DNA from: Hymenobacter guriensis
GTDB lineage: Bacteria > Bacteroidota > Bacteroidia > Cytophagales > Hymenobacteraceae
Direction: 5' to 3'
NCBI RefSeq assembly: GCF_015773195.1
Contig: NZ_JADWYK010000011.1
Coordinates: 1-64,000, forward strand
Length of the DNA stretch: 64,000 nucleotides
Shown here: positions 32,578-34,958 of the stretch, piece after piece
Numbering within the stretch: the stretch's first letter is position 1
Layout of the letters: every line of letters begins with the position of its first letter
The notes under the pieces: model-generated
The model's input: only the letters and a program-made list of their open reading frames with translations
Database searches by the model: none
Told to the model about the DNA's origin: nothing
Made by a program: the position numbers and the translations under genes

Positions 32578-32621
32578 GCCCGGTTGCCGGTACGCGTTAC
32601 CTTCCGGCAACCGGGCTTTTT
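32578..32621 (+). terminator. Terminator after the WG-repeat gene
   Basis: A perfect 13-base-pair stem (GCCCGGTTGCCGG and complement) with a 13-base loop, followed by TTTTT. The first Cys-rich TonB-domain gene starts 13 bases later. Confidence 0.85.
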
Positions 32622-32633
32622 AGTTATTCATCT

Positions 32634-33455
32634 ATGCTGGACTTACCTATCCTGAACGTACAGCTCCGCGCCTGCCACGAGGATTGGCAGCAGATGACAC
32701 CCACGGAACAGGGCCGCCACTGTGCCAACTGCAATCGTGAGGTGTTCGACTTCACCAACGCCACTCAAGCTGACTTAGAAGCAGCCCGCGCAACTTCCCC
32801 CGATGGTCGCCTGTGCGGTCGGTTTCGGGTGGGGCAGCTGGCCGCACCACCGAAGCTACGGCCCCGACTGCGGCGGTTTCTGGTTTCGTTAGTGCTGGTG
32901 TGCGGGCTGGGACTGTCGGCGCGAGAAGCGGTGGCGCAGGTTCGGAAGAAGGTCCATTCAGCAGTAATAAACTCCAAGGCATCAACAAATCATAAAACAA
33001 ATTCGACTTCTTCTACGAGCAGGAGAACAAGCGAGGATGATTTTCCTGAATCACCTATTTCCTCAGAGCTAATCCTTTTAGGTGGAATTGGGTCGGAATC
33101 CTCCAGCGTCTTTGAACAAGATTCTACCAACTATAATGCTGTCTTTACCTATGCGGAGCAGATGCCGCAGTTTCGAGAGGGGGGTCATCAAGGCGCCCTC
33201 CAGTTTCTGCAGCAGCACCTGCGCTGGCCACCCAACACGAGCATGCTGGACGCAGAAGGCCGCGTGTTCGTTAACTTTATCGTGGGCACCGACGGTAAGC
33301 TGCGCGAATTCAAGGTACTGAAAGGCCTTCACCCTCTACTCGACGCCGAAGCCCTGCGCGTGGTCCAGCTTCTGAATGGTCACTATGAGCCCGGCCGGCA
33401 GAGCGGCCGGGCAGTGGAAGTCTACTACACCATCCCCGTCACCTTTCAGCGCTAG
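32634..33455 (+). CDS. Cys-rich N-domain / TonB C-domain protein, copy 1
   Basis: 273 residues. The N-terminal 65 residues carry C14, C30, C33 and C61 with H15 and H29 (ACHEDWQQM, GRHCANC, GRLCGRF), suggesting a small metal-binding domain. A basic stretch leads into one membrane span (FLVSLVLVCGLGLSAREAV, about 82-100). A low-complexity Ser/Thr/Lys linker follows, then a TonB C-terminal domain (about 175-273: PQFREGGHQGALQFLQQ, GRVFVNFIVGTDGKL, VVQLLNGHYEPG). TonB domains contact outer-membrane partners; the N-domain would face the cytoplasm. First of three tandem paralogs. Confidence 0.85.
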   Translation: MLDLPILNVQLRACHEDWQQMTPTEQGRHCANCNREVFDFTNATQADLEAARATSPDGRLCGRFRVGQLAAPPKLRPRLRRFLVSLVLVCGLGLSAREAVAQVRKKVHSAVINSKASTNHKTNSTSSTSRRTSEDDFPESPISSELILLGGIGSESSSVFEQDSTNYNAVFTYAEQMPQFREGGHQGALQFLQQHLRWPPNTSMLDAEGRVFVNFIVGTDGKLREFKVLKGLHPLLDAEALRVVQLLNGHYEPGRQSGRAVEVYYTIPVTFQR

Positions 33456-33459
33456 TCCA

Positions 33460-34167
33460 GTGGTTAGTCTACATCCCTGCCACATCGACTGGCAGCACGA
33501 CCACCGGGTAGGCCCGCACTGTGCCGTGTACCATCGCATGGTAGTTGATTTAACCAATTCTACTCAGAAGATATTAAACGTCGCCGCGCCGAATGGCCGC
33601 CTTTGCGGCCGGTTTCGGGCGGAGCAGCTGGCCAGGCCGCCGAAATTGCGCCGCCGATTGCGGCCGTTTGTAATTGTGTTGATGCTGGTCTGCGGGTTGG
33701 GGCTGTCGGCGCGGGAAGCAGTAGGACAGTTTCTGCCCCGCACGGAACAGGCCATAATCGGAATTAGAACTATTACTGATGTTTCAGCGGCTGCGCTGGG
33801 TTTAAAGATTGCACCATCCGCTTCGCAGAGGCAGGCGAAGCTATTGGTTAGCTGCATTCTTGAGCCCATGCCATCTTTTCCAGGCGGGCAAGATTCTCTG
33901 GTAGCTTATCTGAGAAGAAATCTGCATTACCCCGTCTCTAATACAGCCGAATGCACATTATTCATTGGCTTCGTTATCACGAAAACCGGACACCTCACGC
34001 AGGCCAAGGTGTTGAAAGGAGTCAGCCCCGCTCTGGAAGCAGAAGCGCTGCGTGTGGTGCAGAAAATGCCCCGCTGGGTGCAGCCGCCACGGCCTACCCC
34101 GATAGAGGTAAGGTATACGCTGCCCATCACCTTCGCCTCAGCTCAACAAGCTCCCGAAAAGCGTTAA
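33460..34167 (+). CDS. Cys-rich N-domain / TonB C-domain protein, copy 2 (degenerate N-domain)
   Basis: 235 residues from a GTG four bases after the previous stop; the only other starts are far upstream inside copy 1. The N-domain is shortened and altered: CHIDWQ lacks the leading LPILNVQL segment, and the HCAVYHRMV stretch has lost the second cysteine of the CxxC pair, while NGRLCGRF remains. The membrane span (LMLVCGLGLSAREAVGQ) and TonB C-domain (PSFPGGQDSLVAYLRRN, CTLFIGFVITKTGHL, PITFASAQ) are intact. The middle is AT-richer than copies 1 and 3. It may be drifting towards loss or a changed function. Confidence 0.75.
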   Translation: MVSLHPCHIDWQHDHRVGPHCAVYHRMVVDLTNSTQKILNVAAPNGRLCGRFRAEQLARPPKLRRRLRPFVIVLMLVCGLGLSAREAVGQFLPRTEQAIIGIRTITDVSAAALGLKIAPSASQRQAKLLVSCILEPMPSFPGGQDSLVAYLRRNLHYPVSNTAECTLFIGFVITKTGHLTQAKVLKGVSPALEAEALRVVQKMPRWVQPPRPTPIEVRYTLPITFASAQQAPEKR

Positions 34168-34172
34168 CATCT

Positions 34173-34958
34173 ATGCTGAACTTACCTATCCTGAATGTAC
34201 AGCTCCGCACTTGCCACGCAGATTGGCAACAGATGACACCTACGGAACAAGGTCGTCACTGCGCCGTGTGCCAGCGCACGGTTATCGACTTTACCGCCGC
34301 CGCTCAAGCTGACCTAGAAAATGCCCGCGCCGCCGCGCCGGATGGCCGCGTGTGCGGTCGGTTTCGGGCGGAGCAGCTGGCCGCACCACCGAAGCTGCGG
34401 CTCCGGCTGCGGCGGTTTCTGGTAGCGCTGGTGCTGGTGTGCGGGCTGGGACTGTCGGCGCGGGAAGCGGTGGCGCAAGTGAAGCCGGTGCTGCGGGATA
34501 ATGCTGCTATGAATTCTACGATGGACGAGGTATGGTTAGCTCCCTTGGTCCAGGCGGATGAGCTAAGACAGGCAGCTAGTAAGCCCGCCGAGAAGACGTT
34601 TCTAGGGTATATAGAGCAAATGCCTGTCTTTAGAGGAGGAATGGAAAGGCTGCCAGAAATTATCCGTCAAAACAACCACTTTCCGGTTGGCATAGATTCT
34701 ATAAAAGGGAAGGTATTCGTCTCCTTTACCATCAACGAACAAGGCCGCGTCGTCAAACCTGTAATAACCAAAGGCCTGCACCCGAAACTGGATGCCGAAG
34801 CGTTGCGACTGGTGCAACTGCTGGATGGCGAGTGGTCGGCAGGCAGCCAGAACGGCCGGCCGGTTCCGGTGCAGTTCACGCTGCCCATCATCTTTGACTC
34901 AACGCCAGGGAACCCTGTACTATCCGGGAAGAAATCAGCTAAACGCGCCCGACGGTAG
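34173..34958 (+). CDS. Cys-rich N-domain / TonB C-domain protein, copy 3
   Basis: 261 residues starting MLNLPILNVQLRTCHADWQQ, nearly the same as copy 1 over the first 100 residues, including all four cysteines (CHADWQ, GRHCAVC, GRVCGRF), the LAAPPKLR segment and the LVLVCGLGLSAREAVAQ span. The DNA around the start codon (CATCTATGCTG) is also shared with copy 1. The linker diverges; the TonB C-domain (PVFRGGMERLPEIIRQ, GKVFVSFTINEQGRV, FTLPIIFDS) closes the protein. It starts 5 bases after copy 2, so the three form one transcription unit. Confidence 0.85.
   Translation: MLNLPILNVQLRTCHADWQQMTPTEQGRHCAVCQRTVIDFTAAAQADLENARAAAPDGRVCGRFRAEQLAAPPKLRLRLRRFLVALVLVCGLGLSAREAVAQVKPVLRDNAAMNSTMDEVWLAPLVQADELRQAASKPAEKTFLGYIEQMPVFRGGMERLPEIIRQNNHFPVGIDSIKGKVFVSFTINEQGRVVKPVITKGLHPKLDAEALRLVQLLDGEWSAGSQNGRPVPVQFTLPIIFDSTPGNPVLSGKKSAKRARR

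Follow-up and report, generated by a model that had tools for sequence, protein, structure and literature searches.

An apparently undescribed four-cysteine domain and a predicted cleavable signal as a proposed conserved leader on tandem TonB_C proteins of Hymenobacter guriensis and on other Bacteroidota proteins

Three adjacent genes in a 64,000-nucleotide stretch of a Hymenobacter guriensis contig (NZ_JADWYK010000011.1, positions 1 to 64,000, called the window here) encode proteins in which a cysteine-containing domain precedes a hydrophobic segment and a TonB C-terminal domain. This arrangement raises the question of whether the segment is a lasting membrane span that ties a cytoplasmic sensor to a TonB-type output, or an export signal at which the two halves are separated. 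The genes lie head to tail, with gaps of 4 bases between copies 1 and 2 and 5 bases between copies 2 and 3; the starts of copy 2 (GTG) and copy 3 (ATG) were chosen by homology and by these gaps of 4-5 bases. The features are as follows.

32634..33455, plus strand: copy 1, 273 aa, with a four-cysteine N-domain, a signal-like segment, a 73-residue linker containing two prolines, and TonB_C
32634..32843, plus strand: copy 1 N-domain, residues about 1-70, with Cys14, 30, 33 and 61
32877..32936, plus strand: copy 1 hydrophobic segment, ending AVA; Q102 (32937-32939) is the predicted +1 residue
33216..33446, plus strand: copy 1 TonB_C domain, Pfam match
33460..34167, plus strand: copy 2, 235 aa, GTG start, with a shortened N-domain (Tyr in place of the third Cys), a signal-like segment and TonB_C
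33667..33726, plus strand: copy 2 hydrophobic segment, ending AVG and followed by Q (33727-33729)
33940..34134, plus strand: copy 2 TonB_C domain, Pfam match
34173..34958, plus strand: copy 3, 261 aa, with an intact four-cysteine N-domain, a signal-like segment and TonB_C
34173..34382, plus strand: copy 3 N-domain; residues 1-76 modelled alone give a mean pLDDT of 82 and a pTM of 0.66
34416..34475, plus strand: copy 3 hydrophobic segment, ending AVA; Q102 (34476-34478) is the predicted +1 residue
34701..34898, plus strand: copy 3 TonB_C domain, Pfam match; the model matches solved TonB C-domains

A sequence-only reading of this locus had described three tandem genes joining the motif series CHxDW, GRHCxxC and GRxCGRFR to a TonB C-domain, and this description holds. 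The first motif reads CHEDW, CHIDW and CHADW in copies 1, 2 and 3, the second GRHCANC, GPHCAVY and GRHCAVC, and the third GRLCGRFR, GRLCGRFR and GRVCGRFR, while TonB_C (Pfam PF03544) matches all three proteins with E-values of 6.7e-13, 2.1e-9 and 3.9e-11, respectively. Copy 2 has indeed lost one cysteine, carrying tyrosine at the third position, and the start of its N-domain is shortened; the starts of copies 1 and 3, said to be near-identical, share just 80% identity over the N-domain. Upstream of the array, an inverted repeat rich in GC, with a run of T after it, was recognized by eye at 32578-32616, ending 17 bases 5′ of the copy 1 start. This stem, of which the promoter scan reports a shorter version, leaves scant space for a copy 1 promoter; the scan returned 2 matches against 1.5 expected.

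The N-domain sits at the N terminus of its proteins, with at most 15 residues between the upstream Met and the domain start in 91/94 rows found by profile search. All four cysteines are kept in 89/92 profile-found members (90/94 rows when two duplicates are included) and in 123/124 named-locus rows (124/125 rows aligned), so that conservation in homologues, one of the checks proposed for the domain, is almost invariant for these residues. Among the profile-found rows the third cysteine is substituted only in window copy 2, with a gap at this position in two others. His15 of the CHxDW motif is kept in just 38/94 profile-found rows; the domain, first taken to be Cys/His-rich, is therefore better described as a four-cysteine domain, and a Cys/His metal site was rejected. 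The four cysteines would probably hold one zinc.

The N-domains of copies 1 to 3 have no Pfam or NCBIfam match, tallies covering 125 relatives include no convincing model from either library, and 89 N-domains searched alone against Pfam likewise returned no convincing model; weak matches of these lone domains, among them FYVE, Maf and DUF6487 (best E listed, 9e-4), were attributed to chance. In the full-length model of copy 3 the N-domain is confident, with block pLDDT values of 87-96 over residues 11-70, and residues 1-76 modelled alone form three short strands and two helices, for which Foldseek found no match in the PDB. A PDB sequence search for a known fold gave only TonB matches, belonging to the C-domain, and high-mobility-group matches that were taken as chance. 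Structure prediction, which had been suggested as a check for a zinc site, here bears on the fold of the N-domain, and the zinc site is putative. Taken from sequence searches, this appears to be a four-cysteine domain absent from the curated libraries searched and apparently undescribed.

The profile search, with the host genome counted, places the N-domain in 53/395 Bacteroidota genomes and 24/170 genera. A pattern scan of species genomes had 264/351 matches confirmed, and the 80 kept carry Bacteroidota names, as judged by reading. The 94 profile-found rows contain two duplicates, and counts were repeated on 92 members and on sets thinned to leaders less than 60% identical; the odds given to the hypotheses below are the same after the recount without duplicates. 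Six further N-domain rows, in which fewer than 60 residues follow the domain, were left out. The host genome holds a second tandem triple on contig C27 (L009, 113463-115700) in which CarboxypepD_reg-like parts replace TonB_C; the signal of its third copy ends in LLTGC, a possible lipobox. A locus of Hymenobacter gummosus (L054, 2620-7232) has six tandem N-domain genes, and in the pairs examined there, divergence is much greater after the signal than before it. At loci L014, L031 and L199, N-domain genes are apparently broken by a stop after the domain or soon past the signal, suggesting that the family is sometimes lost.

A list of the C-terminal parts fused to the N-domain, another check proposed at the outset, shows CarboxypepD_reg-like parts to be commonest, followed by TonB_C and a few T9SS-tailed or Plug-like proteins. 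Pfam matches among 125 named-locus proteins comprise CarbopepD_reg_2 in 78, TonB_C in 26, T9SS tails in 5 and Plug in 2, and among 36 other proteins, including the three copies of the window, CarbopepD_reg_2 in 17, TonB_C in 13, T9SS tails in 2 and Plug in 2. The N-domain is mostly fused to non-TonB parts. Six lipobox members (L056, L070, L095, L083, L093 and L120) have mature parts without a known domain, in whose low-complexity sequence strings of the IMGDT, TMGMI and LKGKV types recur, which could represent a docking motif or eroded CarboxypepD strands.

Between the N-domain and these parts lies the hydrophobic segment. In the profile-found rows with enough sequence (94), the best 11-residue stretch past the domain has a mean hydropathy of at least 1.3, a value obtained by picking the best 11-mer and with no chance control. 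The nine residues leading into the segment hold on average 2.29 Lys+Arg against 0.11 Asp+Glu, a bias that agrees with the cytoplasmic placement first proposed and from which the N-domain is predicted to be very probably cytoplasmic. The uncharged run of the segment is short (median 15 residues), and in the window copies the segment ends in AxA|Q (copies 1 and 3) or AxG|Q (copy 2). According to PMC5837995, most Bacteroidetes proteins cut by signal peptidase I have Gln at +1, and this Q-rule is likewise given in PMC10653852. All three copies show the features expected of such substrates, namely a basic N-in flank, a short h-region, small residues at -3 and -1, and Gln at +1, and none of the three has a lipobox.

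The same features extend to the family. A crude site of either the xAxQ or the lipobox type occurs in 78/92 profile-found members against 22.7 expected from shuffles, in 40/52 against 14.0 after thinning to leaders less than 60% identical, in 80/94 against 23.8 without deduplication, and in 146/161 against 49.1 in the first set of proteins. A PROSITE-like lipobox was matched by 35/92 profile-found members against 0.9 expected (thinned, 12/52 against 0.5). The rows without a lipobox have Gln in the searched region in 56/58 cases, and in these 56 Ala is the commonest residue at -1 (27/56), with Ala or Val at -3 in 31/56; 14/92 members match neither crude motif, most of which were judged signal-like by eye. 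Distinct profile-found TonB_C members have a lipobox in 18/23 cases, mostly close relatives (3/5 after thinning), and the TonB domain of these members would be on a lipoprotein. The T9SS-tailed cargo also fits a genuine signal, since T9SS substrates are exported first by a Sec signal peptide, as stated in PMC12618676. The single membrane span described from the sequence alone therefore stands as a single hydrophobic segment, but probably not as a lasting anchor, because its short run and signal peptidase site predict cleavage. The segment is very likely a cleavable Sec signal, with cleavage strongly predicted, and given its shortness and its terminal signal peptidase I site or lipobox, the two halves of these proteins are probably separated.

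Comparison of the copies points to the same boundary. DNA identity between copies 1 and 3 is 75-92% over the first 306 bases and 35-65% beyond them (the last 6-base bin being ignored); base 306 belongs to the codon of the predicted +1 Gln, so that the likeness spans the N-domain and signal and ends at the predicted cleavage site. The reverse pattern is seen between copy 3 and the single copy of Hymenobacter sp. BT18 (L041), with 76-88% identity over the leader and 92-100% over most of the remainder, falling to 71-80% at the very end. Both patterns fit a leader swapped or gene-converted between tandem copies, and gene conversion among such copies would explain part of the cassette pattern. In all 82 within-locus pairs compared, the two N-domains resemble each other more than the mature parts do (medians 0.67 vs 0.28), and in pairs with the same cargo type the leader is closer than the mature part in 47/47, with fewer synonymous differences in the leader in 42 of these 47; such pairs have loci in common and so lack independence, and because N-domain similarity was the basis on which the loci were retrieved, the sample is biased towards a conserved N-domain. 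Identity in the leader gene across seven species (21 pairs) is 88% for the signal segment, 72% for the N-domain and 46% for the TonB part, whereas a neighbouring secreted M20 gene of the same seven species has the opposite pattern, with 47% in the signal and 82% in the mature part; M20 starts were set by rule and were usable in 7/13 loci, with 6 and the window used. A low-resolution FastTree of the domain (67 columns, 219 rows), to be taken as a hint only, needs at least 7 changes between TonB_C and CarboxypepD and at least 18 changes of signal type. From these comparisons the N-domain and signal appear to behave as one conserved cassette, behind which cargo may be swapped at the predicted cleavage site.

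Membership among classical TonB transducers can be judged from several features. The ExbB family has three matches in the genome, all on other contigs than that of the window (C2), in agreement with the earlier statement that none is adjacent; no ExbB partner was found near the window copies, and an unlinked one could still exist. The classical TonB helix carries a Ser/His motif and is followed by a proline-rich periplasmic linker; the hydrophobic segments of copies 1 to 3 contain no His, and the linker of copy 1, the only one counted, has just the two prolines listed above. On these grounds, together with the predicted cleavage, the copies were rejected as classical TonB transducers. They do share the TonB_C sequence and predicted fold with classical TonB, and the best Foldseek matches of the copy 3 model are solved TonB C-domains (E 3.5e-4), and the TonB_C fold is taken as real despite the rejected membership. 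Elsewhere in the host genome, the TonB-like L121 and L128 lie about 2-3 kb from an ExbB-family gene and have a longer helix without AxAQ, and about eleven TonB_C proteins (a count by reading) have plain cleavable signals, mostly ending xAQ. The latter have a signal followed by TonB_C as in the window but lack the four-cysteine N-domain, and by sequence the window copies resemble such exported TonB_C proteins with an extra domain placed before the signal.

We propose that the N-domain, with its about 70 residues, four almost invariant cysteines and probable zinc, forms one leader module with the hydrophobic segment, an explanation to which we assign a probability of about 0.5. The N-domain would stay in the cytosol while the segment enters the Sec translocon as a signal peptide; in the window copies signal peptidase I would then cut at AxA|Q, and in other members signal peptidase II at the lipobox, as is strongly predicted. 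The exported part, TonB_C here and CarboxypepD_reg, Plug-like or T9SS-tailed parts elsewhere, would be delivered to the periplasm, the outer membrane or the cell surface. Most likely, the leader would recruit a dedicated factor, cytosolic or membrane-bound, by which export is targeted or timed, and this would account for a conserved leader in front of diverging, swapped cargo; by analogy, the chances are about even that recruitment before cleavage is its main role.

Such a leader would be a longer counterpart of the extended signal peptide region (ESPR) of autotransporters and two-partner secretion proteins, which, in PMC2805444, is an N-terminal extension of about 25 residues before an ordinary-looking Sec signal. 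The window family likewise has, by sequence, an N-terminal extension before a predicted cleavable signal, but differs in its length of about 70 residues, in its predicted folded, four-cysteine nature, in also standing before lipoboxes, and in its cargo of CarboxypepD_reg, TonB_C and others. Among the open-access papers listed on TonB, CarboxypepD_reg, long signal peptides and zinc, none describes this domain, and no paper was found for the four N-domain motif strings or for internal signal peptides and lipoboxes. Long leaders are known from autotransporters; none with a four-cysteine domain of this size, or standing before a lipobox, turned up in this literature.

Gene neighbours point to lineage-specific company. 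No conserved operon partner across lineages was found among the 97/155 immediate neighbours run against Pfam, and no partner was inferred because the tables hold no neighbour gene that recurs from one lineage to another. In Hymenobacter, a WG-repeat gene recurs upstream and HMG-CoA reductase downstream of the TonB type, and CrtC-like genes recur beside the CarboxypepD_reg type. Glutamine cyclotransferase recurs beside some Flavobacteriia members and accounts for 11/97 scanned neighbours; it (PF05096) was confirmed just upstream at L065, L069, L073, L104 and L115. A link to the predicted Gln mature N-terminus is tempting, but may be plain synteny.

The leader might also act after cleavage rather than before it. 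Each export event would then leave a folded zinc-type domain as a separate small protein, membrane-held or released as a messenger, again with a cleavable Sec signal of the peptidase I or lipoprotein kind and with cargo swapped at the cleavage site. The cut leader of about 100 residues, oriented N-in, would stay in the inner membrane until an S2P/RseP protease frees the four-cysteine domain, as in FecR. PMC10470546 describes RseP as acting on single-span type II proteins that have first been cut on the periplasmic side, as well as on remnant signal peptides and small membrane proteins (about 50-100 residues). In PMC8144685, FecR has a cytosolic stretch, about 85 residues long, that is freed by RseP and acts with FecI; it is similar in length to the N-domain and likewise followed by one N-in span. 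Genes of the S2P family and for signal peptidase II are present in the host genome, and a leader so strongly conserved would be consistent with a role after the cut. The FecR periplasmic part is linked to TonB-dependent receptors. The comparison weakens, however, in that no FecR or anti-sigma family appears among the Pfam matches listed, cleavage by signal peptidase is predicted, and no ECF sigma factor lies nearby: the contig of the window carries 0 of the genome's 25 Sigma70_r2 matches, and on contig C27 about 129 kb separates the second array from the closest one. Remnant signal peptides are, as a rule, simply broken down, and the messenger would need an as yet hypothetical effector, so that a messenger role is a tentative, rather unlikely reading.

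The uncleaved transmembrane sensor first proposed for this locus, in which the metal or redox state of the four cysteines is relayed by a single span to a TonB domain in the periplasm, is improbable. Its one N-in span and conserved cysteines are present, and the hydrophobic segment is very conserved within Hymenobacter, which is also what would be expected of an uncleaved helix with a fixed partner. Signal peptidase sites are nevertheless far above chance, a lipobox is found in most of the profile-found TonB_C members, cargo is mostly not TonB, and the uncharged runs are short; it is the lipobox and T9SS members that such a sensor accommodates least well. Of the metal- or redox-dependent envelope signalling suggested from the sequence, what survives is a conserved, very probably cytoplasmic cysteine module outside classical TonB; a stable chain from cytoplasmic sensor through span to TonB output is not supported, given the short segment and predicted cleavage. 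A cytosolic export gate, in which the zinc-bound or oxidised N-domain folds and delays translocation and the apo or reduced form lets the signal enter, is very unlikely, since although the conserved cysteine pattern stands directly before the signal and is common to signal peptidase I and II cargo, no metal or redox family recurs among the neighbours in the listed part of the Pfam tally (25/74 families, 97/155 immediate neighbours) and copy 2 is retained without one of its cysteines.

Returning to the proposed leader module, a folded domain before a cleavable signal or lipobox occupies a place where one would hardly be expected, and this domain spans many Bacteroidota genera. If the predicted cleavage is true, many TonB and CarboxypepD_reg 'membrane proteins' would instead be exported cargo and a separate leader protein.
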